From assembly GCA_029239675.1 (NCBI GenBank), contig JARBUM010000014.1, positions 1 through 51,872 on the forward strand: a DNA stretch of 51,872 nt, in the 5' to 3' direction. Under the pieces are notes generated by a model. That model worked only from the letters and a program-made list of their open reading frames with translations, searched no databases and was not told the origin of the DNA. Shown here piece by piece: positions 10,519-30,079 of the stretch. This stretch comes from Pelosinus sp. (GTDB lineage Bacteria; Bacillota; Negativicutes; DSM-13327). Each line of letters starts with the position of its first letter. Position 1 is the first letter of the stretch. The translations under genes and the position numbers were made by a program.

Positions 10519-10529
10519 ATTGCTCCTCC

Positions 10530-11807
10530 TTACTGACCCCCATGGCCGCTGTGTTCGCTCCCGGCAGCAGGTGCCGGAGCAATCGCGCCGCTATTTGTAC
10601 CACCTGAAGGTGCTGGCGCACCAGTCTCCTTAGTGGTTCCACCGCCACCGTGTCCGGCATGACTGCCAAAACTGCCTAATTTAGTCTGGGAGTCAATGAG
10701 AAAGGTAGCTGCTGTTACCACTGTATCACCAGGTTGTAAACCAGACAGGATCTGAACATAACCATCGGCGTGTTGGCCTGTGACTACATCTCGTTTAACA
10801 AAAGTATCTTCACTTTGAGCAACAAAGACAATTTTACGACTGCCGGAATCTAAGAGGCTGGATTCCGGTACAACTAAGCTATCCCCCAAAGGTAATTGAA
10901 CATTCGCATTAACAAACATGTTGGGTTTCAATCTCCCCCCTGGATTGGCCATTTCCACTCGTACTTTAATGGTTCGGGTGGCATCATCTAGAACCGGGTT
11001 AATAAAGGTCACTTGCCCACTAAAATTTTCCCCCGGATAGGCACCACTGTTCACCGCAACTGGCTGACCTATTTTAATGCCTGCTATGTCTTTTTCATAA
11101 ATATCGACATACAACCAAACAGTGGATAAGTCTGACAGACTATACAATTTATCGCCAGGCATAATAAATGATCCTGGCAACAGCTGTTTTTCCAGAACGG
11201 TGCCACCGAACTGGGCATAGATGGTCATATGATCTTTAGGCTTTCGAGTATGTTCCAGATGAGCGATATCACTGTCCGGTACATTTAACAGCTGTAGCTT
11301 GCGCCGTGCCGCTTCCCGCAGGCGGTTGTTAATCTGGACCACATCTTTGCCGGCGTTTTGCAGTTTCTGCACATTTTCCAGTGTTAATAAGTATTCTTCC
11401 TGAGCTGCGATAAAGGTTGGGCTGTATACAGCGGCGATAGCTTGCCCCGGGGCAATATATTCACCATCAGCGGTTACGTACAATTCATCAATTCGACCTT
11501 CCACACGGGAAGTAATATAGGTCCGTCCGTTCTCATTCATGGCAATCTTACCGGTGGTTTTGATTTCCTTAGCAAGGGCCTTGACGATTGCTTGCGCTGT
11601 TTGCACTCCCGACAATTGTCTGGCCTTGGCATCTAGGGTAACCACGTCTCCCATAGCCATAACCGGAGCAGTTGTTTGATGCCCCGTATGATCCATAGTC
11701 ACCTTTGCCTGCTGCGTCGCATAATAGTAACCGCCACCGCCAAATACCAGAACACCAGCGGCCACACCTATTATAATTTTCTTTTTAGCCTGTAGTCTTT
11801 CGATCAT
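10530..11807 (-). CDS. cusB: CusB-type periplasmic adaptor of RND metal pump
   Basis: This 425-residue membrane-fusion protein has a membrane anchor (about residues 8-28), then a metal-loop segment with His and Met (MDHTGHQTTAPVMAMGD), a barrel-sandwich domain, a helical hairpin (about residues 135-185) and beta-barrel domains ending near LVVPESSLLDSG and LSGLQPGDTVV. The last 50 residues are a Gly/Ala/Pro linker with His pairs (SHAGHGGGG and SEHSGHGG), a feature of metal-linked adaptors. The frame opens at 11840, but the GGAGAGG sequence five bases before ATG 11807 supports the shorter start, which also removes the overlap with the channel gene. Its place between channel and pump genes fits a CusCBA-type operon. 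Confidence 0.9.
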   Translation of the reverse strand: MIERLQAKKKIIIGVAAGVLVFGGGGYYYATQQAKVTMDHTGHQTTAPVMAMGDVVTLDAKARQLSGVQTAQAIVKALAKEIKTTGKIAMNENGRTYITSRVEGRIDELYVTADGEYIAPGQAIAAVYSPTFIAAQEEYLLTLENVQKLQNAGKDVVQINNRLREAARRKLQLLNVPDSDIAHLEHTRKPKDHMTIYAQFGGTVLEKQLLPGSFIMPGDKLYSLSDLSTVWLYVDIYEKDIAGIKIGQPVAVNSGAYPGENFSGQVTFINPVLDDATRTIKVRVEMANPGGRLKPNMFVNANVQLPLGDSLVVPESSLLDSGSRKIVFVAQSEDTFVKRDVVTGQHADGYVQILSGLQPGDTVVTAATFLIDSQTKLGSFGSHAGHGGGGTTKETGAPAPSGGTNSGAIAPAPAAGSEHSGHGGQ

Positions 11808-11836
11808 GCTGTCCTCTCCTTTATCTAACTTGCTCA

Positions 11837-13135
11837 TCATGGTTGGGTTCCACTCGAAAATAAGGGCTTTCCTACTGCCTTTTCTAGATTAGCCACCGCT
11901 TTTTCATAATTTACACGGGCTTTATAGTAATCCAATCGCACATTACGGAGAGCATTTAAACTATCCAGAACAGCCATGAAATCCACTTTACCGTTGGTAT
12001 AGCTTACAACTCCTGCTTGGTAGGTTTGTTCCGCTTGGGGAATCACCGTATTTTTATACAAGTCGATCTGACGCCAGGCTGACTGGGCCTCGGTCAATGC
12101 CATCTGCAAATCCAGGTCGGTCATATTTTGCATGTTGATCAATGAAGCCTGAGCTGCATCCAGGCCAGCCCCAGCTGATTTAATTTCTGCTTTATTTTTG
12201 CCCTGCCAAATGGGCAGCATGACCATAACTTCCATTTTCCAGGTATCGGGTGCGGTATCCATCATCGTTTGTTTTCTATCTTTATAGCCAATACTGATTT
12301 GATAATCTGGCAGCTGCTGTTTTTTCGCTAATTCCACACCGTTTTTTGCCATCTCCACTTGCTGTTCCATACCTAGAACAGCTGGTTTACCGGCTTGGGC
12401 TTCTATTTGCAATTTTGTCAAATCAAAATTAGGGGGCGGAGCGCTAAACTCCTCTTTTACTGCGAGAGGCGAATCGGCTTTCCGACCAATGACGGTATTG
12501 ACTTTAGCTTTTGCAACTGCTGACATGGACGCCATACTTAAGAGATCGGTTGTCATTTTAGAAAACTCAGTTTGAGCCCGCAAAGTATCTTGCAGGGGTA
12601 CCATCCCAGTGGAGTAGTTAACCTGAGCAATCTGAACCAACTGACCCATGAGTTGCTGATTTTCCTTACCAATTTCCAGTGCTTTATCGGCATAAAGCAA
12701 GTCATAATAGGCTGTTTTGGCGGTAGCATAGACTTCCATCTGCTTATCTTGATAATTGGCCTTGGCCATTTCAGCATCACTACCAGCCATTTTACCCATC
12801 GCTTTCAGTTTTGACGGATTCATAATGTCCTGAGTGAAGGTATATTCGGTCATCATAGCATCAAAAGGATTTAAGGTGCCATTTGGTATATCATCTTTCA
12901 TAATTCCGAACTGAGGATTGGGCCAAGCTTTAGCCAGTGGAATGCGAGCCTGTTTCTCTTCCCAGCGTTTCTGACTCTCAATGACAGCTGGATTATTCTT
13001 GACAGCAGTTTCCACCACTTGCTGCAGCGCCAACGTCTCCTGAACTTCCTCCGCCACAGCAAGTGGCATCATTCCCAATATGAACAACGCGGTCAAAGGT
13101 AGTGCTTTGTGTTGAAACCATTTTCCTACTTCCAT
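11837..13135 (-). CDS. cusC: TolC-family outer-membrane efflux channel (CusC-like)
   Basis: The 432-residue exported protein has a signal peptide (ending near LAVAEE) and the two-fold TolC repeat of long amphipathic helices: NPAVIESQKRWEEKQARI early and a repeat near AGLDAAQASLINMQNM. This is the outer-membrane exit duct of the tripartite pump. No lipobox is evident, unlike E. coli CusC. Its presence implies an outer membrane, so the host is a diderm. It is the first gene of the pump operon; the AAGGGGG site is 3-4 nt before ATG 13135, and a repeat-driven promoter lies about 85-115 nt upstream. Confidence 0.9.
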   Translation of the reverse strand: MEVGKWFQHKALPLTALFILGMMPLAVAEEVQETLALQQVVETAVKNNPAVIESQKRWEEKQARIPLAKAWPNPQFGIMKDDIPNGTLNPFDAMMTEYTFTQDIMNPSKLKAMGKMAGSDAEMAKANYQDKQMEVYATAKTAYYDLLYADKALEIGKENQQLMGQLVQIAQVNYSTGMVPLQDTLRAQTEFSKMTTDLLSMASMSAVAKAKVNTVIGRKADSPLAVKEEFSAPPPNFDLTKLQIEAQAGKPAVLGMEQQVEMAKNGVELAKKQQLPDYQISIGYKDRKQTMMDTAPDTWKMEVMVMLPIWQGKNKAEIKSAGAGLDAAQASLINMQNMTDLDLQMALTEAQSAWRQIDLYKNTVIPQAEQTYQAGVVSYTNGKVDFMAVLDSLNALRNVRLDYYKARVNYEKAVANLEKAVGKPLFSSGTQP

Positions 13136-14166: not shown

Positions 14167-15132
14167 CTATTTACCTAATATTTTTTTCAACTCATCACTT
14201 TTCTGTTTGACGTTATCTTTGTTAATTACTTCTGTACCTGTATCAATGCGTTTATCAAGAGCTTCTCCTTTAGCGGCCTTAATTGCAGCTTCTACTCCCT
14301 TAAAACCAATGTTATAAGGACTTTGGGCAATGGAAGCATTAAGCTTTCCTTCTGTAATCGATGTCAATGCATCCGGTGAACCATCAAAGCCAACTATGGG
14401 AACATTCATTTTTGCAGCTTCTAATGCTTTATAAGCACCTAAGGCCATCTCATCATTTGTAGCAAAAACTCCAACGAATTCTTGTTTACTTTGTACTATA
14501 TTTTCCATTACTGTTACTGCCATACCACGTTCGCTATTAGCAGGCTGAATTACTGCTACCTCTAAACCAGCCGCTTTTAATCCTTCTACACAACCATTAG
14601 CCCGTTCATCATGTGTAGGGTCGCCTAATGCACCACGGAGGATTACTACCTTTCCGCCCTTAGCTACTTTCTTGCCGAAGTATTCCCCTGCAAGCTTACC
14701 GCCATTAAAGTTTCCCGTACCTACAAAAGAAACTTTATCATCCCATTTAGCATCTGTATCTGCAAGAATTACGGGAATCTTAGCTCCTTTCGCCTTATTA
14801 AATACGGGAATAGCACTGGCTGGTTGTGAGGGTGCCACGACAAGGGCATTCACCTTCTTGGTAATCTGGTCTTCCAGCATGGAAATTTGCCCTGTTACAT
14901 CCGTTTCCGCATTAGGACCAAGAACTTTTACTTCAACACCATACTTTTCCCCTGCCGCTTTAGCACCAGACTCTACTATTTTCCAATAGTCACTATTTAG
15001 TGCTTTGACTACCACACCAATTTTCATTTTATCAGGTTCTTTTTTGGTTTGGGTTTGTGTACTACCGCAGCCAGTAGTGATCAGAGTCGCCATCAAAAAA
15101 GTGGCCATTAACGAAAACAAACCTTTTCTCAT
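14167..15132 (-). CDS. Sugar ABC transporter binding lipoprotein (probable inositol)
   Basis: The 321-residue product is a periplasmic-binding protein of the ribose/inositol (RbsB, Peripla_BP_4) class. It has a lipobox (TLITTGCGS), then two Rossmann-like lobes: MKIGVVVKALNSDYWK at the start of lobe one and VGVFATNDEMALGAYKAL with PIVGFDGSPDAL in lobe two. It delivers a cyclitol or sugar to the permease encoded upstream. Inositol is inferred from the flanking iol genes, not from ligand residues. A 272-nt gap with a large hairpin separates it from the permease gene, so it may be expressed at a different level. Confidence 0.88.
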   Translation of the reverse strand: MRKGLFSLMATFLMATLITTGCGSTQTQTKKEPDKMKIGVVVKALNSDYWKIVESGAKAAGEKYGVEVKVLGPNAETDVTGQISMLEDQITKKVNALVVAPSQPASAIPVFNKAKGAKIPVILADTDAKWDDKVSFVGTGNFNGGKLAGEYFGKKVAKGGKVVILRGALGDPTHDERANGCVEGLKAAGLEVAVIQPANSERGMAVTVMENIVQSKQEFVGVFATNDEMALGAYKALEAAKMNVPIVGFDGSPDALTSITEGKLNASIAQSPYNIGFKGVEAAIKAAKGEALDKRIDTGTEVINKDNVKQKSDELKKILGK

Positions 15133-15238
15133 TCTAAATTCCCCTCCTACCTAATTTGCTCTTCCCATGGTGTTATTTCCCTTTTTAAAATTGTTATTAA
15201 CTTTGTTTTCTGCTCCACCTCCTTAACATGATAGTACT

Positions 15239-15368
15239 CTCTCGGAAAATAACCATCTATACCTATAAACAGGCAAAGGATGAGTATAACTATAAGCGTA
15301 AATTAAGTAGAAGGTTGGAGCATTGGTTATACTCATCCTTTGCCCTCCTAAATGATACTTTCCGAGAG
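15239..15368 (-). repeat. Large nested inverted repeat between permease and binding-protein genes
   Basis: A perfect 19-bp inner stem (GGCAAAGGATGAGTATAAC at 15272-15290 with its complement at 15326-15344) lies inside a 10-bp outer stem (CTCTCGGAAA at 15239-15248 with 15359-15368). In RNA this forms a long stem in the intercistronic region. Comparable structures in sugar-transport operons protect or separate cistrons to raise binding-protein output; that role is inference. A 37-codon frame with an AGGAGG site starts inside the inner stem (see findings). Confidence 0.7.
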
Positions 15369-15404
15369 ACTACTGATAATTGTTGACTTAACCACCTTCA
15401 ATTT

Positions 15405-16409
15405 TCACGCCTTCACCTTTGCAGCCGCCTTATGCCTTAATACGTCTATATATACTGCCAGAATAATAACAATACCGATGGCGACTGTCTGCATTTCAGA
15501 GGAAACACTCAAAAGGTTTAACCCATTGCGCAAAACCGCCATAATCATGGCACCAATCAGAGTACCCCATACCGTACCCTCGCCGCCCATAAAACTAGCT
15601 CCACCGATGATAGTAGCTGCAATGGCATCAAACTCATACCCCAAACCAGCTAGGGGATATGCGGAATTTACCCTACCGACAAGCACCAACCCACCCAACG
15701 CAGCCATAAAACCGCTAATTGTATACACTATGATTAAGACTTTATCAATACTGATTCCTGATAGCCGTGTAGCCTCAGGATTACCACCTACCGCATATAT
15801 GTACCTGCCCACAGTGGTATAGTTAAGGAAAATATGGAAAATCCCATATACAACTAACACTAAGAGAAAACTCACTGGCACTGGTCCTAGAAAGGCCGCT
15901 CCTAGGAACTGTATAGGCTCTGGGAAGTTTGAGATCGGCGAAGCAGCTGTCACAATTAAAGCCAGCCCACGTGCCACATTCATAGTTCCCAAAGTAGATA
16001 TAAAAGGATGAGGCAAAGACAATTTAGTAAGGGTAACACCATTGATAAACCCCAGCAAAACTCCTACCCCTAGGCAAACAATGATACCAATGATCGGCGA
16101 CATTCCCAGTTTCACCACTACGATCCCCATTAAGACAATGCTTAGGGCTAGAATCGATCCAACAGATAAATCAATCCCTGCTGTCAATATGGTCAACAGC
16201 ATGCCTAAAGCAATTAGACTGTTAATCGCCGACTGACGGGCAACATTCATGATATTATCCATCGTCAAAAAGTAAGGGGATAAATAGGTCAAGACACCGG
16301 ATAAAGCCAACAGTCCAAATAAGGGTCCTAGTTTTTGCATAATTTGACGAAAGTGCACTTTATGTCCATTGCTATCACCCGGCAATGGTTGGGGTGAACT
16401 TACTTTCAT
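15405..16409 (-). CDS. Sugar ABC transporter permease, RbsC family (probable inositol)
   Basis: The 334-residue membrane protein has about nine to ten helices and the BPD_transp_2 features of ribose-type permeases: LIALGMLLTILTAGIDLSVG early, then GFINGVTLTKLSLPHPFISTL and AATIIGGASFMGGEGTVWGT. It forms the channel with the double-domain ATPase. GGGAGG precedes ATG 16409, and the start overlaps the ATPase gene by 35 nt, which implies coupled translation. Substrate is assigned from the iol neighbours. Confidence 0.9.
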   Translation of the reverse strand: MKVSSPQPLPGDSNGHKVHFRQIMQKLGPLFGLLALSGVLTYLSPYFLTMDNIMNVARQSAINSLIALGMLLTILTAGIDLSVGSILALSIVLMGIVVVKLGMSPIIGIIVCLGVGVLLGFINGVTLTKLSLPHPFISTLGTMNVARGLALIVTAASPISNFPEPIQFLGAAFLGPVPVSFLLVLVVYGIFHIFLNYTTVGRYIYAVGGNPEATRLSGISIDKVLIIVYTISGFMAALGGLVLVGRVNSAYPLAGLGYEFDAIAATIIGGASFMGGEGTVWGTLIGAMIMAVLRNGLNLLSVSSEMQTVAIGIVIILAVYIDVLRHKAAAKVKA

Positions 16410-17907
16410 GATTGATACCTCCCGTGGCAGCTTTTAGAATTTTTTCTGGAGCAGCTTCCGAACGGTTGAATTCTGCGGTAATTCTACCATCATGCATAAC
16501 CATAATCCGATTACTAATTCCCATAACCTCAGGCAGTTCGGAGGATATAACTATAACAGCCGCTCCTTCGGATATTAGACGATTAATAACGTTATAAACC
16601 TCTACTTTTGCACCTACGTCAATTCCTCGGGTTGGTTCATCAAAGATAAATATTTTGGCCTTTAAACACAGCCATTTTGCAATCACTATCTTTTGCTGGT
16701 TCCCGCCTGAAAGCAAGCGAGTAACGATATTATAGTTAGCAGGACGCACTTGCAAATCATGTAGCAGTTGTTCCACCTCTTTGCACAAGGATTTGGTGTT
16801 AATGAAGCTACCAAATTTACAAAATCGCTTTAAACCAGCCAAGGTCGAATTGAACTTAATATCGTGCATTAGGATTAGTCCTTGTCCCTTGCGATCTTCA
16901 GTAAGAAACGCAATTCCTTCATTAATCGCATCTCTAGGACTGTTAATTTTCACTTCTCGCCCGAAAACAGCTACGCTCCCGCTATCGATCTTGTCAGCCC
17001 CAAAAATGGCCCTAGCCAGTTCAGTACGCCCCGCCCCTACTAAACCCGCAATTCCTAATACTTCTCCTTGATAGAGTTCAAAAGAAATATCTTTTAAAAC
17101 TCCAGTACGATTGAGACCTGTCACCTGCAGGGCCAAACCTCCTCGCTCTACCGTAACTTGGGGGAACTTTTCTTCTAGGGTACGCCCTACCATCAACTCG
17201 ATGAGTTGTTCCTGGTCCGTCTCCTTTTTATCCATTGTCGCTATCTTGCAGCCATCTCGCATCACTGTGATCCGATCACTGATTTCCAAGACTTCCTCCA
17301 AACGATGGGAAATATACACTATGGCAATCCCTTTCTGTCTTAATTTATAAATGTTATCCAGAAGGATTCTCACTTCCCGTCCCGACAAACTGGAAGTTGG
17401 CTCATCCATAATGATCAACTTGGCATTAGCAATCAGTGCTCGGGCGATTTCTATCACCTGTTGTTGTCCCATGCTGTATTCCCGAACTGGTTTTCCCATA
17501 TCAATATCGGCACCAAGCTCAGTCAAAGCCTCCCGGGCTAACCGAGTCATTTGAGGGTAATTTAACAAACCAATTCCTTTATAGCGCATTTCTCTGCCTA
17601 AAAAGATATTCTCTGTCACCGATAAATTAGGTGCCAAACTTAATTCCTGATAAATAGCAGCGATACCCATTAAAAAGGCATCTTTGGTACTGACGAAGTG
17701 TACATGCTTTCCTTGGCAAACCATCTGCCCTTCATCACAGGAGTAAGCACCCGTTAATATTTTAATCAACGTCGATTTTCCCGCGCCGTTTTCACCTACC
17801 AAACCATGAATTTCTCCGGGTTTGATATCCAAATTAATATTGTTTAACGCTAAAACACCTGGAAACCTTTTGGATACTCCTTTGAGGCTTAAAAGATCTT
17901 CCTCCAT
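16375..17907 (-). CDS. Sugar ABC transporter ATPase with two nucleotide-binding domains, RbsA/MglA type
   Basis: This 510-residue protein holds two ABC domains in tandem. The first has Walker A LVGENGAGKSTLIK, signature YSMGQQQVIEIARAL and Walker B LIIMDEPTSSL. The second has the degenerate Walker A seen in this family (IAGLVGAGRTELARAI), signature LSGGNQQKIVIAKWL and FIFDEPTRGIDVGAK. This layout is diagnostic of carbohydrate uptake class 2 ATPases. A GTG frame starts at 17916, but GGGGGTG is well spaced for ATG 17907. The gene follows the inositol dehydrogenase gene by 30 nt. Confidence 0.93.
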   Translation of the reverse strand: MEEDLLSLKGVSKRFPGVLALNNINLDIKPGEIHGLVGENGAGKSTLIKILTGAYSCDEGQMVCQGKHVHFVSTKDAFLMGIAAIYQELSLAPNLSVTENIFLGREMRYKGIGLLNYPQMTRLAREALTELGADIDMGKPVREYSMGQQQVIEIARALIANAKLIIMDEPTSSLSGREVRILLDNIYKLRQKGIAIVYISHRLEEVLEISDRITVMRDGCKIATMDKKETDQEQLIELMVGRTLEEKFPQVTVERGGLALQVTGLNRTGVLKDISFELYQGEVLGIAGLVGAGRTELARAIFGADKIDSGSVAVFGREVKINSPRDAINEGIAFLTEDRKGQGLILMHDIKFNSTLAGLKRFCKFGSFINTKSLCKEVEQLLHDLQVRPANYNIVTRLLSGGNQQKIVIAKWLCLKAKIFIFDEPTRGIDVGAKVEVYNVINRLISEGAAVIVISSELPEVMGISNRIMVMHDGRITAEFNRSEAAPEKILKAATGGINHESKFTPTIAG

Positions 17908-17937
17908 GGTTTTCACCCCCGTCTACTATCCCCCGGC

Positions 17938-18948
17938 TTATTCCTCAAGTTTTACCGGCTTCCCATCTTCATATGATTTTTTAGCTGCTAGACCAATAAG
18001 TACTGGTTTTAATCCATCAATACCCGAAACCTTTGTATCGGTATCATTAACGATGCTTCCAAAAAATTCTGCCATTTCTGCCGCAAAGGATTCCATATAT
18101 CGTTCAAGGAAAAAGAACTTAGGTTTGTCAGATAACACCCCATCATTCGTGCTTACTACTACAGTTGTCGGAGTGTCATTAGATACGGCTATACTTCCCT
18201 TTGTTCCCAAAACCTCTACCCTCTGGTCATAACCGTATACTGCCTGCCTGCAGTTATCGATCATACCAATTGCACCATTTTTAAATTTTAAGCTAATAAG
18301 AGCGGTATCAACATCTCCTGCTTCGCCAATGGAGGGATTAACAAGCACCCCAGCATTCGCATATACTTCAACAACTTCACTGCCAGTCAGATATCGTACC
18401 ATATCGAAATCATGAATTGTCATATCAAGGAACATACCTCCTGATACTTTTACATATTCAATAGGAGGTGGTGCCGGGTCCCTAGAGGTAACTTTAAGAA
18501 TTTGAACATCCCCAATGGCTCCACTTTGAATCAGTTCTCTAACCTTCTTGAAATTATGATCAAAGCGTCGATTAAAACCAACCTGAAATTTAATCCCAGC
18601 CTGTGCTACAGCATTAAGTGCAGCATGTATGCGATCCACATCATAATCAATAGGCTTTTCACAAAAAATATGTTTTCCAGCCTGTGCGGCTTCTATCGTT
18701 ATCTGTGAATGGGTATTTGTTGGTGAGCAAATAATGACTGCATCAATTTCAGAATCCGCTAAGATACTTCTATAGTCATCATAAACATGCTTAATGCCAA
18801 GACCTATTGCCCAGTCCCTAATCTTGTCAGCATAAATATCAGCAATGGATTTTACTTCAATATCAGAGAAATTTTTGACAATGTTAGTAGCATGAATAAC
18901 ACCAATTCTTCCCGCCCCAATAATACCTACTTTAATCTTCTTACGCAT
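17938..18948 (-). CDS. iolG: Inositol 2-dehydrogenase (Gfo/Idh/MocA family)
   Basis: The 336-residue NAD-dependent enzyme oxidises myo-inositol to scyllo-inosose (2-keto-inositol), the first catabolic step. The Rossmann loop VGIIGAGRIGVIHATNI is at the N-terminus, the catalytic Lys lies in HIFCEKPIDYD near residue 96, and the C-terminal domain contains GGMFLDMTIHDFDMVRYL with the family DxxxH pair. AGGGGAGG before ATG 18948 sets the start; the frame extends 20 residues further upstream without support. Its order after iolE and before the transporter genes supports inositol over other sugar substrates of this broad family. Confidence 0.9.
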   Translation of the reverse strand: MRKKIKVGIIGAGRIGVIHATNIVKNFSDIEVKSIADIYADKIRDWAIGLGIKHVYDDYRSILADSEIDAVIICSPTNTHSQITIEAAQAGKHIFCEKPIDYDVDRIHAALNAVAQAGIKFQVGFNRRFDHNFKKVRELIQSGAIGDVQILKVTSRDPAPPPIEYVKVSGGMFLDMTIHDFDMVRYLTGSEVVEVYANAGVLVNPSIGEAGDVDTALISLKFKNGAIGMIDNCRQAVYGYDQRVEVLGTKGSIAVSNDTPTTVVVSTNDGVLSDKPKFFFLERYMESFAAEMAEFFGSIVNDTDTKVSGIDGLKPVLIGLAAKKSYEDGKPVKLEE

Positions 18949-18961
18949 TTTGAAACCTCCC

Positions 18962-19864
18962 CTATAAACCTGTTTTTTCTTTGATATATTGCCTAGCTTT
19001 GATCGCATATTCTAGGGGATTTGCGAGAGCTGGGTCCTGCTCAGCTTCAACTACAAACCAACCTTCATATTTTTCTTCATCTAATATTTCAAATAGGGGC
19101 TGAAATTCAATCATACCAGCACCTGGCACAGTAAATACCCCTGCTTTCACAGCCTGTAAGAAACTCATTTTTTCAACCTTTACCCTAACTAGTACATCCT
19201 GCCTAATATCTTTTAGATGTACATGTTTTATTCGCTTACTATATTTTTTCAGTACATCTTCTGGATTCTCACCAGAGAAGGTTAGGTGTCCCGTATCAAA
19301 AAGCAGGAATAGGAGGTTTTCATCTGTCATTTCCATGAGCCTGTCAATTTCTGCAGCGGTTTGGACTCCAGTACCCATGTGATGATGATAGACTACTTTC
19401 ATATTTTTCTCTGCTGCCAATCTTCCTAGGTCTTCAAGTCCCCTGGCAAGTAGTTGCCATTCTTCATCCGTAAAATACGGTTTACCATCTATTACAGGTG
19501 TATCCATCATTCCTTGAATACTGTGTCCCTGCTCAGCAACCACGATGACCTTTGCTCCCATTTCATATAAAAAATCCCTATGTCTTTTAAATGCTTCTGC
19601 AGTTTCTGCAAAAGGCTGAGTGGTTAAAAACGAACTGAACCAGGCGCTGGCTATACTCATTCCACGCAAATCAAGGGCCTTTTTTAAAACGTGGATGTCT
19701 TTAGGGTACTTATTGCCAACTTCACTACCCGTAAATCCTGCGAGAGCCATTTCACTTACACATTGCTCAAAAGTATTTTCTGCCCCAAGTTCAGGCATGT
19801 CGTCATTTGTCCAGGCAATGGGGGCAATCCCCAGAAACACTTTATTTTTATCAAACATATCCAT
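18962..19864 (-). CDS. iolE: 2-keto-myo-inositol dehydratase
   Basis: The 300-residue TIM-barrel protein belongs to the xylose-isomerase-like fold. Near the N-terminus it reads [17 protein letters not shown], the hallmark opening of IolE. Likely metal ligands are Glu in VVAEQGHS, Asp in [12 protein letters not shown], His in [10 protein letters not shown] and Glu in [11 protein letters not shown]. It removes water from scyllo-inosose to give 3D-(3,5/4)-trihydroxycyclohexane-1,2-dione. GGGGAGG precedes ATG 19864. It lies 10 nt after iolD. Confidence 0.9.
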
Positions 19865-19874
19865 GTCCTCCCCT

Positions 19875-21737
19875 TTAGAATTTTTTAGTTTTTGGCAATT
19901 CTTTGACCAGTCTTGCGTGTGCTTCAAGTACAGCAGGATTATCCGAAACTTCTGGTACGCCAACACGCCACCATGCTTCGTATCCGCCAGTCATCGTCTT
20001 AGGAAGGACTTTAATATCAATTAGTGTGGATACCCTATCCTTTTTTGCACTTTCCAGAGCCACTTTCAATTCTTCCACCGTTCTTGCTGTATAGGCCTTA
20101 GCACCATACCCTTTGGCACATTCTGCATAGCTTATGGGTAAATCTTCCCCTGTCAGCCTGCCAGTATTTTTGTCTCGAAATTTAAATTGAGTAGCAAATG
20201 TGGGTATACCCTGCTCATTTTGCAAATTCTCAATACAGCCAAAACCCCTATTATCAAAAAGGAGAACATTTATTTTAAAGCCTTCTTGTATGCTTGTTAC
20301 CAGCTCGGAATGGAGCATCAAGTAGCTGCCATCACCTACCAGCGCATATACTTCCTTATCCGGCATTGCCATTTTAACTCCCAGTGCGCCACAAACTTCA
20401 TAGCCCATGCAGGAGAAGCCATATTCCATATGATAGGTTTTAGGTTTTACCGGTCTCCATAACCTTTGCAAGTCCCCTGGCAGACTTCCTGATGAGCCCA
20501 CAACTATAGCATCTTCCTCAATAACTTTCGTGATTTCACCCAGAGCTCTAGCTTGTGAGAGACCGTTTTCAAGCTCTGCGGCAAATAAACGATCCACTTC
20601 TCGATCCCACTCTTCTTTGACTACAGCTATTTCTGTTGTATAGATGGATTGGTACTCTATTTCTTGGAGAGCTTGGGATAAACTAAGCAAAGTTTCTTTC
20701 CCATCGGCGACTATTGTTTTTGCATTCATCTTGTATGCATCAAAGGAATTCACATTGATTGCTAAAAACTCTACCTCTGGATTTTGAAATAACCATTTTG
20801 ATGCGGTTGTAAAATCGGAAAGTCTTGTTCCTACCGCAATGACCAAATCCGCTCCTGCCGCAATTTTATTTGCCGCCAAGCCTCCTGTAACGCCTATACC
20901 ACCTAGATTAAAAGGATGATTCCATGGTACTGCCCCTTTGCCTGCCTGTGTCTCGCCAAAAGGGATATTGAATGTTTCTGCAAACTCTGCAAACTCATTA
21001 CCTGCCTCTGAATATACAACACCGCCACCGCAAATCATCATTGGTTTTTTCTTACTGCATATTGTTCTAACGGCTCTTTCGATTTCGCCCTTAGAAGGCA
21101 TCCTTCTGGTAATATGGTGAACCCGTCTTTCAAGAAATTCAACAGGATAATCATAGGCCTCACCTTCCACGTCCTGTGGTAAACAAATCGTAACCGCACC
21201 CGTATCTGCCGGGTCTGTTAGCACTCGCATAGCATTTATCATTGCCGTCATGAGTTGTTCCGGACGTACAACTCGATCCCAGTACTTTGAAACAGCTTTA
21301 AAAGCATCATTAGCAGTAATGGATATACTTGTGGGATTTTCAAGTTGTTGCAATACTGGATCTGGCTGCCTGCAGGCAAAGGTATCCCCAGGAAAAAGCA
21401 GTAAGGGAATCCTATTGACGGATGCAGTGCCTGCTGCCGTCACCATATTGAGGGCACCAGGACCGATGGAAGAGGTACAAGCAATAATCTCCCGTCTATT
21501 TTTCTGTTTGGCGTAGCCAATGGCTGCATGAGCCATACCCTGTTCGTTTTTCCCTTGGTAGACAACCATATCCCCTTGATACTCTTCCAGAGCTTCCCCA
21601 AAACCAATTACAACCCCATGACCAAAAATGGAGAATATCCCCTTTACAAACTTGTTCTCAACACCATCAAATTCAACATATTGATTATCAAGAAACTTAA
21701 GCAACGCTTGCCCCATGGTAAGCCGTATCGTTTTCAT
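19875..21737 (-). CDS. iolD: 3D-(3,5/4)-trihydroxycyclohexane-1,2-dione hydrolase (TPP enzyme)
   Basis: This 620-residue thiamine-diphosphate enzyme opens the inositol-derived ring dione to 5-deoxy-glucuronate. It has the acetolactate-synthase-like triple domain layout: an N-terminal domain with the catalytic Glu region ([20 protein letters not shown]), a central nucleotide-like domain ([12 protein letters not shown]) and a C-terminal TPP-binding domain ([15 protein letters not shown] to [13 protein letters not shown]). The length fits IolD. It overlaps iolB by 4 nt (ATGA), so translation is coupled. Confidence 0.93.
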
Positions 21738-22570
21738 ATCTCACTCTCCACCTGAATTGACTCTTCTTTATCGGGCCAAATTACAGCATTTTTATTAGTC
21801 ACCCATAGATGCTTGGGATCAAAAATTGGGTATTCGGGTGTTTTATATAGATTGGTATCAAGATGTCTGATAAGCCATATATAGTACATGGCATATCCTG
21901 GAGCAGTAGTCTGTGGATGGGTTGCGCTATCAAGTATCTTCACAGTGTCATTATTTTTAACCTTGACAACATCATCACCCAGTTCCGAAAAACCATACCC
22001 TTGTTCTGGATAAAACTTGTAAAAATAGATTTCCGGCTGGGGATGATGATGTGGCGGATAACTAGACCATTTCCCTGGGAAATCAACAACTTCACCCACT
22101 ACAAGTTTGGAATAGGGAGCATTGGAATAATCAAAGACCGTCCTAACAATCCGTGTTGACGCCTCTTTTAACGTTCCTTTTCCTCGTTCCTCCGATGCAC
22201 ACTCTTCGGGAGTATAGAGTTTTGCTTCAAATATGGCTTCATTATAGGTTTTCGCTATACTAAGTTCGCAGTCGCCAGATACACCAGTAATCTTTACTTC
22301 TACATACCTTGGAACATGGAGAACCCAAGGATTTTGATCAAAACAAGAAGCTCTCTGAATGGTTTTCTTTCCTCCACGCCAACTGAGTGTCACCTCGCCC
22401 CGTATCAATAGGATGGCGATTTCCTTTTCTGGATGGAACAAACAATCCTCCTGATTCTTCGCTAGCCGAAGTATACCAAAATCCATCATGGTATTGTCGT
22501 GTACTTCATCGATCGTTGTAATGGGATTGTACCCAAAATGAAAAGGACCATCTTGCCTTATCCGTAACAT
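21734..22570 (-). CDS. iolB: 5-deoxy-glucuronate isomerase
   Basis: The 278-residue double-cupin enzyme isomerises 5-deoxy-D-glucuronate to 5-dehydro-2-deoxy-D-gluconate. The metal site is visible in [20 protein letters not shown], with Glu and His ligands, and a further His in [20 protein letters not shown] as typical of IolB. In the classical pathway its product is phosphorylated by IolC and cleaved by IolJ, but neither gene is in this operon. GGAGG lies 8 nt before ATG 22570. It starts 14 nt after the transketolase C-terminal subunit gene. Confidence 0.92.
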
Positions 22571-22584
22571 ACCCTATGCCTCCA

Positions 22585-23553
22585 TTACTTTTTCCTGCTT
22601 AATACCTTGTTCACCTTAGTCACTATATTCTCAACAGTCAGCCCAAATCTCTGTTTTAGATAATTTTGTGGACCGACTTCACCGAACAAGTCATTGACTC
22701 CCACCCGCTCCATAGGGACGGGCATGTTTTCCACAACCACTTCTGCAACAGCCGAACCAAGTGCGTTAATAATGTTGTGATTTTCAACAGTAACGATAGC
22801 ACCTGTTTCCTCTGCACATTGGATAATTAAATTCCTATCAATCGGCTTCAGCGTAAAAATATTAACTACCCTTACAGATATTCCTTTTGTTTCTAGTTCT
22901 TCGGCAGCTTTTAAAGCATCATCCACCATGATGCCACTAGCTACAAGGGTTACATCTTTGCCCTCTTTTAGCGTTACACCCTTTCCTATAGTAAAGGTGG
23001 AGCCATCTTCATAAATTTTTACAGCACTCTTTCTGAGTAGCCTTAAATAAAATACTCCATATAGATTTTCTGTCTGTTTCAACAAATCCCGCAATTGTGT
23101 GGAATCCACAGGTTCTAGTATTGTGACATTGGGGATATTGCGGACGATGCCCATATCCTCAAAAGGCATATGAGTTCCTCCATTGAATGCAGCAGTCACA
23201 CCAGGATCACTACCAATAATCCTCACATTCAATCTTGCATAACCGCAGGATAAAAACAGTTGATCGAAACACCGCCTTGTGGCAAAGGGACCAAAAGAAT
23301 GGGCGAAGGGAATTTTCCCGGTCGCTGAAAGTCCTGCTGCGACCCCTATCATATTTGCTTCCTGTATACCCACATCAAATGTCCGTTCCGGATAATGGTG
23401 AGCAAACTTCACCATTCCCATAGAATTCATAAGATCTGCATCCAGGGAAACTATATTCTTATTGCCTGCTGCAAGTTCAATTAACGTCTCACAGTATACA
23501 TTTCTCATTTCCTTAGCTTCTGTTATTCTCTCTTGTGCTAGCTTTGTGCTCAT
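22585..23553 (-). CDS. Transketolase, C-terminal subunit
   Basis: The 322-residue subunit holds the pyrimidine-binding and C-terminal domains of a split transketolase. The catalytic Glu for the thiamine ring is in TFDVGIQEANMIGVAAG; the family GTHQxxED motif reads GGTHMPFEDMGIVRNIPN here, with Met in place of Gln next to the substrate site. VENHNIINALGSAVAEV marks the C-terminal domain. Split enzymes of this kind often serve dedicated pathways (apulose 4-phosphate and sulfofructose transketolases are examples). Its place between the GAPDH/PGK homologues and iolB suggests a substrate derived from inositol, which is inference. It overlaps the N-terminal subunit gene by 4 nt. Confidence 0.9.
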   Translation of the reverse strand: MSTKLAQERITEAKEMRNVYCETLIELAAGNKNIVSLDADLMNSMGMVKFAHHYPERTFDVGIQEANMIGVAAGLSATGKIPFAHSFGPFATRRCFDQLFLSCGYARLNVRIIGSDPGVTAAFNGGTHMPFEDMGIVRNIPNVTILEPVDSTQLRDLLKQTENLYGVFYLRLLRKSAVKIYEDGSTFTIGKGVTLKEGKDVTLVASGIMVDDALKAAEELETKGISVRVVNIFTLKPIDRNLIIQCAEETGAIVTVENHNIINALGSAVAEVVVENMPVPMERVGVNDLFGEVGPQNYLKQRFGLTVENIVTKVNKVLSRKK

Positions 23554-24398
23554 TCTTTCACCAGCCCTTCTAATTCAGCACTAAGTACTGTAAGTGCTTC
23601 CTCCATCTGATCCCGGCTTATATTCATATGATGATTAAACAGTTCCTGCTCTGCAAAGGCCCAGCCCTTGCCTTTAATGGTATGAAGTACAATTACAGAA
23701 GGTTTATCCTTATGCTGTTTGGCATTTTCGATTGCTTCGATAATTTCTATAACATTAGAACCATCGATTTCTTGCCCATGCCATCCGAAGGCTTCAAACT
23801 TACTCTTAATATCTCCCACATCATTAATGTCCTTTGTATATCCATCAAGCTGTTTTTTATTATAATCTACAAAGGTAATTAGATGATCTAATTTCTTCTG
23901 AGCAGCAAACAGAACCGCTTCCCACACCTGGCCTTCCTGTATCTCTCCATCCCCAAGTATTAGGTATGTAAAATTATCCCTGCCGTCCAGTTTATGTCCC
24001 AATGCCACTCCTACTGCCAGGGATGCCCCCTGTCCAAGGGAGCCAGTTGTCATGTCGATTCCCTTTGTTAAATTCCTGTCGCAATGACTGGGAAGATTTG
24101 TTCCTGGTTTATTTAATGTTAAAAGTTCCTCTACAGGAAAGAACCCCTTCAGTGCAAGGGCTGAATAGATAGCAGGACCTGCATGCCCCTTTGAACATAC
24201 TAGCCAGTCCCGCTGTTCCCATTGAGGATTTTTGGGGTCATACTTCATAGCTCCACCATATAAAGCAGCAATGGTATCTGTAATGGATAACGCCCCTCCT
24301 ATATGACCAAATCCCAGATTCCCTATTGCTTTCATCGTTTCCATCCTAATATGAAGTGCTAATATCTTAATTTCTTTCACTGTATCCTTACTAATCAT
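23550..24398 (-). CDS. Transketolase, N-terminal subunit
   Basis: The 282-residue subunit binds the diphosphate end of thiamine diphosphate. Visible elements are GHIGGALSIT (usual form GHPGG), CSKGHAGPAIY with a substrate-site His, MTTGSLGQGASLAVG, and the TPP motif LGDGEIQEGQVWEA to DYNKKQLDG. Together with the downstream gene it forms a full transketolase that moves a two-carbon ketol unit. The Pro-to-Ile change in GHIGG lies close to the cofactor and substrate pocket and may mark altered specificity. Both ends overlap neighbours by 4 nt, a sign of tight co-translation. Confidence 0.9.
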   Translation of the reverse strand: MISKDTVKEIKILALHIRMETMKAIGNLGFGHIGGALSITDTIAALYGGAMKYDPKNPQWEQRDWLVCSKGHAGPAIYSALALKGFFPVEELLTLNKPGTNLPSHCDRNLTKGIDMTTGSLGQGASLAVGVALGHKLDGRDNFTYLILGDGEIQEGQVWEAVLFAAQKKLDHLITFVDYNKKQLDGYTKDINDVGDIKSKFEAFGWHGQEIDGSNVIEIIEAIENAKQHKDKPSVIVLHTIKGKGWAFAEQELFNHHMNISRDQMEEALTVLSAELEGLVKE

Positions 24399-25660
24399 TT
24401 CAGGCCTCCTCTTTCCTGTACATTTGCCATTGCTTCAATTAACGGCATCTTCACTCCTGATAAGAACCTAACCATAGCGCCTCCCGCTGTGCAGACATAA
24501 TCTATCTTTGTGATATCAATAAATTTCTGAGCCGCACTTACCGTATCTCCACCGCCGATAACTGAATATCCAACTGCATCGGCAATTGCATTCCATAGAC
24601 TTTTCGTACCAGCTTGAAATAGCGGATTTTCATAAACCCCTGCTGGTCCATTTACAAATAAGGTACCAGCCTTAGCAATTTCCTTTTTAAAAATCGCTAT
24701 CGTCTCTTGTCCTATGTCCAGATACAATTCCTTAACAGGTGGCTGGTCAATCTTGGCTTCAGCTCTATAACCAGCCTTCTCATAAGCTAGATCAACGGGA
24801 TATATAATTTTCTCAGAATACATTTCAAGATATTTCTTAGCGGGTTCTATAAATCCAGCCAAGGATTTATCTTTGATAAACCTCTCATTCTTTGACCCAA
24901 GATTATACCCTTTTGCCATCAGCATGATCTGACCAACAACACCGCATGTCAGTATCTTATCTGCTGAACCATTTTCTAAAACCTGCTTCATCATACCGAA
25001 GGCATCTGATATTTTAAGTCCCCCAAGGATAAATACATTGGGCCTCTCAGGGCACTCCATTACTTTGGTTAACGCCTTTATTTCCTTCGCCAGAAGCAAT
25101 CCCCCAGCTGTGGGTAATAACTCCTGAAAGGCAACCATGGAAGGAGCATTTCTATGAGCAGCAGCAAAGGCATCATTGACATAATAATCTCCAAGGGGAG
25201 CCAGACTACGTACCAAATAGGTATTGAGCATTTCATCTGCCTTTAGTTTCACTGCATCTTCAAAAGTTGATATTTCTTCACACAAATATCGTAAGTTGCC
25301 GAGGAGAATTGCCTCCCCTTCGTGAAGGTTCTTTATTGCATCCTGAGCCGCAGGCCCACACACATCGTCAATGTATCTGATTTTTTTCCCTAAGAGAGTG
25401 GATAGCTTCTCTGCATGTTCTGCCATCGGTATCAGATTGTGGTAGTCTAGAGTATCTCCCTGATGGGCAAGCATTGCCACCTTGGCACCCCTGTCAAGAA
25501 GGTATTGTATGGTAGGTATCGTTTTTTTTATCCGATTTTCGCTGACTATTCTTTTGGTAATAGGATCGATGGGAGAGTTGATATCGACCCTCAGTATGAC
25601 TGTCTTACCAAGATAATTGAATTCATCCATTGACCTTATAGTCGTTACTTTTGCATCCAT
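24395..25660 (-). CDS. Phosphoglycerate kinase homologue of archaeal type
   Basis: The 421-residue protein aligns with archaeal rather than ordinary bacterial PGK: ILRVDINSPIDP near the start, VAMLAHQ, YIDDVCGPAA, DYYVNDAFAAAHRNAPSMV, and AKGYNLGSKNERFI. Most 3PG-site residues are kept (Arg24, Asp26, Asn28, Arg43, His66, Arg124, Arg170), but the usual SRPG after AHQ reads GDTL, so Asp69 stands where a phosphate-contacting Arg is expected. The nucleotide side is intact: Lys216 in FILGGLKISD and SVIGGGDTVSAA, which is closer to bacterial forms. It overlaps the GAPDH-like gene by 16 nt. Either a second PGK or a kinase for a PGK-like acyl phosphate; I favour the latter in this operon. Confidence 0.9.
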   Translation of the reverse strand: MDAKVTTIRSMDEFNYLGKTVILRVDINSPIDPITKRIVSENRIKKTIPTIQYLLDRGAKVAMLAHQGDTLDYHNLIPMAEHAEKLSTLLGKKIRYIDDVCGPAAQDAIKNLHEGEAILLGNLRYLCEEISTFEDAVKLKADEMLNTYLVRSLAPLGDYYVNDAFAAAHRNAPSMVAFQELLPTAGGLLLAKEIKALTKVMECPERPNVFILGGLKISDAFGMMKQVLENGSADKILTCGVVGQIMLMAKGYNLGSKNERFIKDKSLAGFIEPAKKYLEMYSEKIIYPVDLAYEKAGYRAEAKIDQPPVKELYLDIGQETIAIFKKEIAKAGTLFVNGPAGVYENPLFQAGTKSLWNAIADAVGYSVIGGGDTVSAAQKFIDITKIDYVCTAGGAMVRFLSGVKMPLIEAMANVQERGGLK

Positions 25661-26673
25661 TTTCCCATCTCCAGATAGTTGTTAGTTGCTAAAACGGCAG
25701 CAAACTTATCACTCTCCATCTCCATAGCGGCTCTTATCCCATCTATGCTTTCGGGTATGGTAACTGCTTCCTGGGGAATATTGATTGCGTACATAATGCC
25801 GCCATCGATTTCAACAATGGCTTCTTCCCAAAGAGCAATTTCGTACATATCTCCTCTAGGATTTCCAAGGTCTCTGGCATATCGAAATAAAGAAGCATTT
25901 CCTTGAAAACCATCTGCAATTTTAACAACTCTGATCCTTGGATGTTTATAGAACGCATCTAGTGCCTGTTCCTTACTTATCTTGTCCTTGGTCTTTGCCA
26001 CAACGGTGATAATATGCCCGTGGGTTACAGGGGTGTGTACCAATATACCTGTTGCGTCAATGTGAGGCATAATCGTCATTAAGTCCACAGCCTGATGGCT
26101 CGGCGCTTTATCAATCTGGAGGGCATTGGTGAGTCCGCGATGATAATCGCCTGGATCTGCTACACGCCGTATAATTGTAATAGCAATACTTTCTACACCA
26201 AATTCTCGATCAAGACATTCAACAGATCGGATTAAACCAGTCGTATTACAAGATGTTAATTTTAAAAACTGTTGACCTAGACCTTGCTCATAATTGGCAT
26301 ACCCATGAAAAAACACATCTGCGACGGAGTCCTTCTCTCCTCCTTGGAAGATTGCTTTTTTGTTATATTTTGCATAAAGTTCCTTATTCTTAGCTCCTAC
26401 ACCCGCACTTGTAGCGTCAAGTAAGATATCTGACTGCTGAACCAGTTCTTCGAGAGTTCCTGCTATGGGAATATCTAATGCCTCAAATTGGGACAAATTT
26501 TCTTGTATTCCTAAATATAGGGAATAGGGCATGCCCTTTTCTTTTAATGCCCGGATGGCAAGGGTTGGTGTAACGTCAGCTACTCCTACCAGCTCCATGT
26601 CCTTTTGTAAGGCTACTCCGTCTGCAAGTCTTTGTCCTATTACTCCATAACCTACAACTCCTACTTTTACCAT
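25645..26673 (-). CDS. Type II (archaeal-type) glyceraldehyde-3-phosphate dehydrogenase homologue
   Basis: The 342-residue protein is of the archaeal class II GAPDH family, which differs strongly from bacterial GapA. Evidence: VGVVGYGVIGQRLADGV coenzyme loop, SAGVGAKNK, AIFQGGEKDSVADV, catalytic Cys142 in LTSCNTTGL, RRVADPGD, and THGH (His218/His220) for the base. Archaeal SHHGPD reads SHQAVD here, near the phosphate-binding region. Such enzymes oxidise an aldehyde to an acyl phosphate with NAD(P). It is first in the operon, after a structured 264-nt upstream region, with GGGGGG before ATG 26673. It may act on glyceraldehyde 3-phosphate or, as I propose, on an isosteric C4 aldehyde from inositol. 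Confidence 0.9.
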   Translation of the reverse strand: MVKVGVVGYGVIGQRLADGVALQKDMELVGVADVTPTLAIRALKEKGMPYSLYLGIQENLSQFEALDIPIAGTLEELVQQSDILLDATSAGVGAKNKELYAKYNKKAIFQGGEKDSVADVFFHGYANYEQGLGQQFLKLTSCNTTGLIRSVECLDREFGVESIAITIIRRVADPGDYHRGLTNALQIDKAPSHQAVDLMTIMPHIDATGILVHTPVTHGHIITVVAKTKDKISKEQALDAFYKHPRIRVVKIADGFQGNASLFRYARDLGNPRGDMYEIALWEEAIVEIDGGIMYAINIPQEAVTIPESIDGIRAAMEMESDKFAAVLATNNYLEMGKWMQK

Positions 26674-28714: not shown

Positions 28715-30079
28715 TTGAATATTGTTATTTCATTAATCGTCACTTTTTGGGTAGGTTTTCTTATTGTCAAAAAGTATAAACCGCAACCTGTTCTATTCAT
28801 GGCTGGACTAATTCTTATGTTTGCGGCAGTTGCCCTTGGACTCGGAAAAATTCTGCCAGTGAAAGACAGTACTGGATTAGTTCTCTTTGACGCCTTCGAA
28901 TTTATCAAGCAGACTTTTAGTTCCCGTGCTGCGGGTCTGGGTCTTAACATCATGGCTGTAGGCGGTTTCGCCCGTTATATGGATCACATCGGAGCCAGTA
29001 AAGCTCTTGTTAAACTGACAATCAAACCGTTACTAGCACTTAAATCTCCTTATATTGTTATGTCCGGTGCTTGGGTCGTGGGGATGCTCTTAGGCCTATG
29101 CATCAACAGCGCCTCTGGCTTGGCGATGCTACTTATGGTTACCATGTTCCCCGTTCTCATCAGTCTTGGGGTCAGTCGTTTGTCCGCTACTGCGGTTATT
29201 GCAACTACCCTTTGCCTAGACTGGAGTCCCAGTGATACAGGAACAATTTTGTCTGCTGTCACTGCCGGAATTGATCCGGTAATCTACTGGACCAACTACC
29301 AGCTTCCTATAGCAGCAGTTGTAATTCCAGTGGTCGCAGTCCTCCACTTTGTTGTACAGAAATGGTTTGACAAACGTGAAGGTCATGTGGTTCAAGTTAC
29401 GGCACTTGCCACATCTGAAACGGATGAGAATTTGCCACCAATGATTTATGCAATACTGCCTGCTCTGCCTCTAGCCTTAATTTTGGCTTTTAGCAGCCTT
29501 TGGATTACTTGGATTAAAATGGATATTATAAAAGCCATGTTTATTGGCGTAGCTGTCGGCATGATTTTCGAATATATCCGTCATCGCGACGGAAAGAAAG
29601 TTCTCGGAGATATCCAATCTTTCTTTGATGGCCTTGGCATGCAAATGGCCAATGTTATCACATTAATCGTAGCCGGTGAAACCTTTGCTAAAGGTCTCAC
29701 TACCATCGGCACCATTGATGCGATTATCGCTTCGGCTCAAAGTTCAGGCTTCGGTGCTATAGGTATGATTCTTGTTATGATTAGCATCATTGCCATTGCA
29801 TCCGTAGTTATGGGTTCGGGTAATGCACCGTTTTTCGCCTTTGCTGCATTAACTCCCACCGTTGCCGCTAAAATGTCTATTGCGCCAGTGGTTATGCTCT
29901 TACCTATGCACTTTGCAGCAAGTGCCGCCCGCACAATGTCACCAATAACAGCAGTTATCGTAGTTGCTTCCAGTATGGGTAACGTCTCACCCTTTGATGT
30001 GGTGAAACGAACCGCTATCCCCATGATCGGTGCCCTAATCACTCTGGTTGCTGCGAATTTCTTCTTCTTTTACCAGTAA
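28715..30079 (+). CDS. dcuC: C4-dicarboxylate transporter, DcuC family
   Basis: The 454-residue integral membrane protein has about 12 helices and DcuC-family features: an N-terminal helix pair followed by KPQPVLFMAGLILMF, FSSRAAGLGLNIMAVGGFA, LDWSPSDTGTILSA, and near the end GSGNAPFFAFAALTP and HFAASAARTMSPITAV. DcuC carriers exchange or export C4-dicarboxylates such as succinate, fumarate and malate during fermentation. The start is TTG at 28715, supported by AAGGAGG 8 nt upstream. The gene ends at a 24-bp hairpin. Given that the neighbouring operon could yield malate, a dicarboxylate carrier here is suggestive, though it is not co-transcribed. Confidence 0.9.
   Translation: MNIVISLIVTFWVGFLIVKKYKPQPVLFMAGLILMFAAVALGLGKILPVKDSTGLVLFDAFEFIKQTFSSRAAGLGLNIMAVGGFARYMDHIGASKALVKLTIKPLLALKSPYIVMSGAWVVGMLLGLCINSASGLAMLLMVTMFPVLISLGVSRLSATAVIATTLCLDWSPSDTGTILSAVTAGIDPVIYWTNYQLPIAAVVIPVVAVLHFVVQKWFDKREGHVVQVTALATSETDENLPPMIYAILPALPLALILAFSSLWITWIKMDIIKAMFIGVAVGMIFEYIRHRDGKKVLGDIQSFFDGLGMQMANVITLIVAGETFAKGLTTIGTIDAIIASAQSSGFGAIGMILVMISIIAIASVVMGSGNAPFFAFAALTPTVAAKMSIAPVVMLLPMHFAASAARTMSPITAVIVVASSMGNVSPFDVVKRTAIPMIGALITLVAANFFFFYQ

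Follow-up and report, generated by a model that had tools for sequence, protein, structure and literature searches.

What becomes of the sugar acid made from myo-inositol in an inositol operon that carries neither the kinase nor the aldolase nor the semialdehyde dehydrogenase of the classical pathway? An operon of eleven genes raises this question in a 51,872-nucleotide stretch of DNA from Pelosinus sp. (contig JARBUM010000014.1, positions 1 to 51,872; hereafter the window). It joins transport genes, iolG, iolE, iolD and an iolB-like gene to a type II glyceraldehyde-3-phosphate dehydrogenase (GAPDH) gene (gapII), a phosphoglycerate kinase (PGK) gene (pgk2) and a transketolase split into two subunits (tktN and tktC). 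Its gene content suggests that the operon probably encodes a kinase- and aldolase-free route from myo-inositol to D-malate via transketolase, GapII and Pgk2, and that this is probably a new inositol route. The observations that bear on it are the gene content, the conserved linkage of the genes, the D-malate-handling families found beside them in relatives and the separate canonical GAPDH and PGK in the same genomes; from these we infer the substrates of transketolase, GapII and Pgk2 and the flux as a whole.

IolG, IolE, IolD and IolB act in sequence to give 5-dehydro-2-deoxy-D-gluconate. Read from C6, this acid is a 2-ketose with the fructose-like D-threo configuration that transketolases accept in their donors. 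In the proposed operon-encoded route, which would use neither a kinase nor an aldolase on this acid, the four Iol enzymes would yield 5-dehydro-2-deoxy-D-gluconate, and the two-subunit transketolase (TktNC) would move the terminal ketol unit (C5–C6) onto glyceraldehyde 3-phosphate or another sugar phosphate. The products would be xylulose 5-phosphate and, from the donor, a C4 acid aldehyde, (R)-3-hydroxy-4-oxobutanoate (D-malate semialdehyde). As derived by hand, removal of the ketol should leave OHC-CHOH-CH2-COO- with the configuration of D-glyceraldehyde, and oxidation of the aldehyde should then give D-malate. GapII would act with phosphate as a phosphorylating dehydrogenase to convert 3-hydroxy-4-oxobutanoate into 1-malyl phosphate, and Pgk2 would serve as a malyl-phosphate kinase that releases D-malate and ATP. 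D-malate could reach pyruvate either through a malate racemase and malic enzyme or through a D-malate dehydrogenase, and the ketol units would re-enter metabolism via the pentose phosphate pathway, for which phosphofructokinase would be required. The IolC step of the classical pathway costs ATP, whereas here breakdown of the sugar acid would cost none and Pgk2 would gain one.

The eleven genes occupy positions 14167–26673 of the window on the minus strand. They are listed in the order of transcription, with profile scores and, in brackets, curated cut-offs where these exist.

25645–26673, minus strand: gapII, type II (archaeal-type) GAPDH homologue; NF003251, 403.2 bits (185); TIGR01546, 298.1 bits (232.9).
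24395–25660, minus strand: pgk2, PGK homologue; PF00162, 363.5 bits.
23550–24398, minus strand: tktN, N-terminal transketolase subunit; PF00456; aligns to 12–282 of NF004559.
22585–23553, minus strand: tktC, C-terminal transketolase subunit; PF02779 and PF02780; aligns to 313–625 of NF004559.
21734–22570, minus strand: divergent IolB (5-deoxyglucuronate isomerase family); PF04962 (KduI/IolB), 193.7 bits; TIGR04378, 107.1 bits (205).
19875–21737, minus strand: iolD, trihydroxycyclohexanedione acylhydrolase; TIGR04377, 964.5 bits (715).
18962–19864, minus strand: iolE, inosose dehydratase; TIGR04379, 424.8 bits (290).
17938–18948, minus strand: iolG, inositol 2-dehydrogenase; TIGR04380, 481 bits (355).
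16375–17916, minus strand: ATPase of a sugar-type ABC transporter, GTG start, two ABC domains; PF00005, 191.2 bits over two stretches.
15405–16409, minus strand: ABC transporter permease; PF02653, 145.2 bits.
14167–15132, minus strand: periplasmic sugar-binding protein; PF13407, 207 bits; best NCBIfam match RbsB, under its cut-off.

Gene identities were assigned by Pfam and NCBIfam profile scans, the latter with the curated cut-offs. The scans confirmed the coordinates and families given in a preliminary description of this DNA, which had read the locus as eleven genes in one orientation that join transport and iolG, iolE, iolD and iolB to four enzymes of central carbon metabolism; its statement that iolC, an iolJ-type aldolase and iolA are missing also held, no match to any of them, or to a DUF2090 aldolase, being obtained among the eleven genes. 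Neighbouring genes overlap by 4–35 nt or are separated by 10–21 nt, except for a gap of 272 nt between the permease and binding protein genes. The starts of iolE and iolG were chosen by us within longer open reading frames, and the profile scan of iolG began at 18945, one codon short of 18948. IolG, IolE and IolD exceed their equivalog cut-offs, and IolB is assigned at the family level (PF04962). TktN and TktC correspond to the N- and C-terminal parts of full-length transketolase profiles and each falls below the full-length cut-offs; the Pfam domains show a two-subunit layout, with a separate thiamine pyrophosphate-binding N-terminal half and a pyrimidine-binding/C-terminal half.

We determined how often these genes are linked in other genomes. 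A scan of an 84,980-species collection gave 468 relatives, and the 80 most similar to the window were retained. Together with eight loci from the phylum they make 88 loci, or 86 after removal of duplicates (L059 = L013 and L082 = L014). The counts refer to loci with window-like GapII, not to genomes, and leave the window out; Lucifera butyrica, Clostridium magnum and one Treponema metagenome-assembled genome (MAG) contribute two loci each. Linkage was scored by tblastn at no less than 80 bits, and taxon labels are those of the sequence record titles. GapII occurs in 9 of 398 genomes of the phylum, that of the window included, and in one of ten genomes of the window's order, namely its own; the taxa among the relatives include Clostridia, Chloroflexi, Spirochaetes and one Thermotogae MAG. 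The genes linked to gapII in the 88 loci were pgk2 (86), larA (54), iolE (44), iolD (44), tktN (43), tktC (41), iolG (38), iolB (34), malic enzyme (26) and phosphofructokinase (8), the last standing immediately after larA in five loci. The 86 non-redundant loci contain iolD or iolE in 43 cases, and in 32 of these transketolase genes are present as well (hereafter iol+tkt loci). The window and these 32 loci display 20 gene orders, a count partly inflated by contig ends, short contigs and repeated or undetected genes. Since numerous other genomes also group these genes, though not always in the same sequence, their association exceeds what chance would give.

The genes linked to this set point to D-malate as its end product. 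Among the 32 iol+tkt loci, larA is present in 29, a gene for a TTC-family dehydrogenase in two and neither in one (L056), whose contig extends about 4 kb beyond gapII in either direction. The malate racemase family LarAH6 is represented by NF052593, with a cut-off of 500 bits; E ≤ 4e-150 was taken as about that cut-off, the LarA of L019 having 504.4 bits at 1.9e-151. With a fragment (L058) left out, 25 of the 28 LarAs scanned from iol+tkt loci reach this level. Linked LarAs that were scanned singly scored 601.2 (L014), 599.3 (L013), 580.3 (L015), 537.5 (L017) and 504.4 bits (L019). LarAH6 exceeded its cut-off seven times in 13 genomes (six of them positive), six of the seven genes adjoin gapII–pgk2, and four genomes of the same genus as the window that lack gapII have none over the cut-off. 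L081 and L098, the two iol+tkt loci that lack larA although their flanks are of full length, have instead a TIGR02089 (TTC) match at 544.9 and 521.3 bits, respectively (cut-off 470.4); we take this family to include the D-malate dehydrogenase of Escherichia coli. TTC exceeds its cut-off in 4 of 20 genomes, those of L081 and L098 and two others. The preliminary description had predicted the D-stereoisomer of malate without having seen either gene, and for this reason the complementarity of larA and TTC genes, together with the family of the racemases, is to us the strongest evidence for D-malate. With LarA or a TTC dehydrogenase encoded in 31 of the 32 loci, gene content supports D-malate as the probable product.

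Two further genes of these families were noted. In the L172 region (G234:C33:1102–3220), on a contig other than that of gapII, a TTC gene over the cut-off is the immediate neighbour of a partial gene resembling LarAH6 (444.7 bits). An IMDH-like gene beside pgk2 of L103 was considered as a D-malate dehydrogenase and rejected, as it is LeuB (524.8 bits vs 353.2).

An ordinary use of the central carbon genes has to be weighed, in which GapII and Pgk2 would be extra glycolytic copies that boost the flux of glyceraldehyde 3-phosphate formed from inositol via the pentose phosphate pathway, and the transketolase would be an ordinary enzyme of that pathway. GapII scores above the type II GAPDH cut-offs, and C142, H218 and H220, among them the catalytic Cys and His, are invariant in nine homologues, all of which would suit such a role. 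The window's own assembly, which is 89% complete in 271 contigs, gave no match to PF00044 and none to PF02800 except gapII itself, so that a canonical GAPDH was not found there, which would suit it as well. The genomes with the cassette or gapII nevertheless carry canonical copies apart from the linked pair: of 29 such genomes, 28 have GAPDH (PF00044) over the cut-off and 28 have another PGK with a higher score, the exception for both being the same 1.6-Mb genome (L084). The window's genome has a second, canonical PGK gene as well, which stands in a glycolytic cluster, truncated at the end of contig C87 and followed by tpi, gpmI and eno (names assigned by eye). Because this gene is cut by the contig end, the sequence preceding it is missing, and we read the missing canonical GAPDH as missing sequence. 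The prediction of a dedicated second GAPDH/PGK pair is supported in the relatives and, for PGK, in the window's genome.

The active site of Pgk2 also bears on the choice. The solved structure nearest to Pgk2 is a phosphoglycerate kinase (2cun). In an alignment of 83 Pgk2 sequences (one of 84 was lost in trimming) and 28 canonical PGKs, neither group shows any variation at D26, N28, R43, H66, R124 and R170. Position 69, which we take to be the equivalent of human Arg65, the arginine that binds the 3-phosphate of 3-phosphoglycerate, is never basic in Pgk2 (Asp in 66, the window included, Ser in 12, Gly in 4 and Asn in 1), whereas it is Arg in 19, Lys in 6 and Asp in 3 of the canonical enzymes and Lys in the archaeal PGK 2cun. 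Ordinary use leaves this altered site unexplained, together with the linked malate racemase, malic enzyme and TTC genes and the lack of iolC. A glycolytic role of GapII and Pgk2 is mostly rejected through the canonical copies; we keep it as a rival that we consider unlikely.

Two other explanations concern the iol genes themselves. The operon might be incomplete, and inositol might be degraded by IolC, an aldolase and IolA of the classical kind whose genes lie elsewhere. The incompleteness of the assembly leaves room for this, and in the window's genome the IolC-like sugar kinases score as high as 195 bits and the aldehyde dehydrogenases as high as 256 bits. These candidates remain below the cut-offs, the best IolC match reaching 195 bits against 300 (TIGR04382) and the best IolA match 255.9 bits against 448.5 (TIGR01722), so that the whole-genome search proposed in the preliminary description returned neither gene over its cut-off; this search covered iolC and iolA, and iolJ and DUF2090 were not searched for. 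IolC exceeded the cut-off in none of nine genomes, the window's own included, and in one of 17 in a second set; one genome is in both sets, which makes one of 25, and the exception is Clostridium ganghwense (L098). Sugar kinases below the threshold were common in the genomes searched for IolC. MMSDH/IolA exceeded its cut-off in one of 18 genomes (Clostridium sp. CX1, L109). With iolC below the cut-off in 24 of 25 genomes, we regard this explanation as highly improbable. Alternatively, the IolB-like protein might make another keto acid, and the C4 end product would be tartrate or another 2-hydroxy acid. The score of IolB below the IolB cut-off would fit this, as would the name of the TTC family, tartrate dehydrogenase. 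IolE and IolD, both over their cut-offs, give the 5-deoxy product instead, and malic enzyme is encoded in 26 of the 88 loci. In the available text on LarAH6-type enzymes (PMC11770544), a tartrate side activity, which would also fit, is described, but the characterised LarAH62 prefers malate about 57-fold over D- or meso-tartrate (63×10^4 vs 11×10^3). A different C4 acid is in our view very improbable.

Several observations nevertheless weigh against the proposed route to D-malate. The window, the 33rd iol+tkt locus, has no linked larA or TTC gene, and the D-malate step was not found in its own genome, 89% complete as assembled: LarAH6 reached 390.1 bits at best against 500, and TTC (TIGR02089) 243.2 bits against 470.4. 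The four LarAs of this genome are not supported as malate racemases, two being over the lactate racemase cut-off, one LarAH10 and one under all cut-offs, with no LarAH6 over its own. The LarAs of three spirochaete loci (L077, L099 and L117) fall below the LarAH6 cut-off at 388–394 bits, with LarAH6 still their best family. Among 22 LarAs scanned from the other gapII loci, two pieces of L018 being left out, 12 are at the LarAH6 level, one (L102) matches the malate racemase family LarAH5 at 529.4 bits (cut-off 462), and nine belong to neither. In the two additional TTC-positive genomes the TTC gene lies off the cassette contig. Linked transketolase genes are lacking in 11 of the 43 iol loci, seven of which have larA, and 23 of the 86 loci show gapII without transketolase genes, iol genes or larA; 16 of these 23 are from Clostridia-type MAGs, and several are on short contigs. 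To the same side belong the divergence of IolB (107.1 vs 205 bits) and the Asp at position 69 in 3 of 28 canonical PGKs. Finally, no record of growth on inositol by holders of the cassette was found in the literature searched, and the Lucifera butyrica paper never mentions inositol.

The distribution of the linked genes raises the possibility that GapII, Pgk2 and LarA act together as a general module for energy conservation, which would oxidise (R)-3-hydroxy-4-oxobutanoate to D-malate by way of 1-malyl phosphate and into which several pathways would plug; we consider this an evenly balanced proposition. The candidate inputs would be IolE/IolD/IolB with transketolase (32 of 86 loci), IolN/IolO-type genes with transketolase (six loci, four with larA) and an E1-E2-E3 complex (four loci, all with larA). 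The remaining 33 loci comprise one with an IolN-like gene and no transketolase and 32 of other context, among them the 23 that have neither transketolase genes nor larA.

Individual loci of these groups differ in their partners. L015 (5802–15340), L016, L064 and L116 carry pyruvate/acetoin-dehydrogenase-type E1-E2-E3 genes near gapII, pgk2 and larA with no iol or transketolase match, and malic enzyme is present in three of the four; such a complex is possibly an alternative source of the same C4 aldehyde acid. L017, L019, L108, L110, L111 and L112 combine IolN/IolO-type genes, transketolase and gapII–pgk2, with larA in four of six; here a tartrate semialdehyde might take the place of the C4 product proposed above. 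Seven spirochaete iol loci (L089, L092, L104, L106, L115, L123 and L124) have gapII, pgk2 and a distant LarA without a transketolase match within the locus. Seven loci from small-genome Clostridia MAGs (L067, L071, L078, L079, L084, L087 and L091) have gapII–pgk2 and no iol, transketolase or larA match within the locus, and canonical GAPDH and PGK are also present in six of these seven genomes.

The proposed route can be compared with known systems. With the classical Bacillus subtilis-type iolGEDBCJA pathway it shares IolG, IolE, IolD and an IolB-family isomerase; the classical pathway proceeds by phosphorylation and an aldolase, whereas cleavage by transketolase is proposed here, in a genome with no IolC or IolA over the cut-off. 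The Thermotoga-type inositol pathway consists of IolG, IolM, IolN and IolO. It is similar in that the ring is opened without a kinase, but the operon of the window encodes IolE, IolD and IolB in place of IolM, IolN and IolO; IolN matches occur in 7 of the 88 gapII loci (541.5 bits in L019; cut-off 245). The homologous GAPDH and PGK of lower glycolysis likewise convert an aldehyde into an acyl phosphate and then ATP, but the pair found here is separate from the canonical pair, has an altered residue at the phosphate site and is linked in relatives to a sink for malate. An engineered pathway for 2,4-dihydroxybutyrate (PMC12104201) has malyl phosphate and a malate semialdehyde in common with the present route. 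Synthetic routes of this kind reportedly proceed through 4-malyl phosphate, in which the carboxyl remote from the hydroxyl is activated, whereas the intermediate proposed here would be 1-malyl phosphate.

A precedent for the transketolase step comes from sulfoquinovose breakdown (sulfo-TK), a pathway also named in the preliminary description: SqwGH takes a ketol unit from a sulfo-ketose that bears no phosphate and passes it to glyceraldehyde 3-phosphate (PMC9594981). In both systems a transketolase would act on a ketose that ends in an anion other than phosphate, with glyceraldehyde 3-phosphate as acceptor. The substrate here would be a carboxylate from inositol, and oxidation of the C4 product would be coupled to formation of ATP, whereas the sulfo-TK product is isomerised.

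The linked LarAs belong to the same family as the LarAH6 malate racemases. The paper reporting the discovery of malate racemases, in the portion available, used a nearby malic enzyme gene as a clue and calls their in vivo role an important open question (PMC7583248). In the main texts of PMC7583248 and PMC11770544, supplements not covered, the words transketolase, phosphoglycerate kinase, glyceraldehyde and inositol never occur, and transketolase never occurs in the available text of a survey of inositol clusters (PMC9430895). According to the available text on GapMind, a known or proposed keto-deoxygluconate-phosphate aldolase was found in only 18 of 26 inositol users (16 IolC-DUF2090 and 2 IolJ; PMC9007349). 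The preliminary description knew of no account of the route, and we found none in literature titles and abstract openings, a search that did not cover subscription papers, preprints or supplementary tables, including the gene-context table of PMC7583248.

If the proposed route is correct, it adds to the ways in which bacteria exploit inositol, which arises from phytate in soil, gut and sediment, and it would yield ATP at a point at which the classical pathway consumes it. A general module, if it exists, would be a further site of substrate-level phosphorylation and would give the nickel-dependent malate racemases a physiological role. The in vivo role of malate racemase and the aldolase gap among inositol users both become testable. 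Family-level annotation labels genes of the gapII and pgk2 type as glycolytic enzymes, which calls for caution.

Other genes of the window were annotated in the same way. An M20 peptidase gene lies 264 nt upstream of gapII, and beyond it, on the opposite strand and outside the operon, is a transporter gene that may have a part in moving malate or succinate.

28715–30079, plus strand: DcuC-type C4-dicarboxylate transporter; NF037994, 425.6 bits (cut-off 100).

At 7330–13135, a gene for a protein of 1062 amino acids and genes for a membrane-fusion-like and an outer-membrane-factor-like protein run in one direction; judged by eye, they look like a diderm RND efflux system. A YdiU/SelO-family protein is encoded at 47235–48812 (NF000658, 552.3 bits; cut-off 431).

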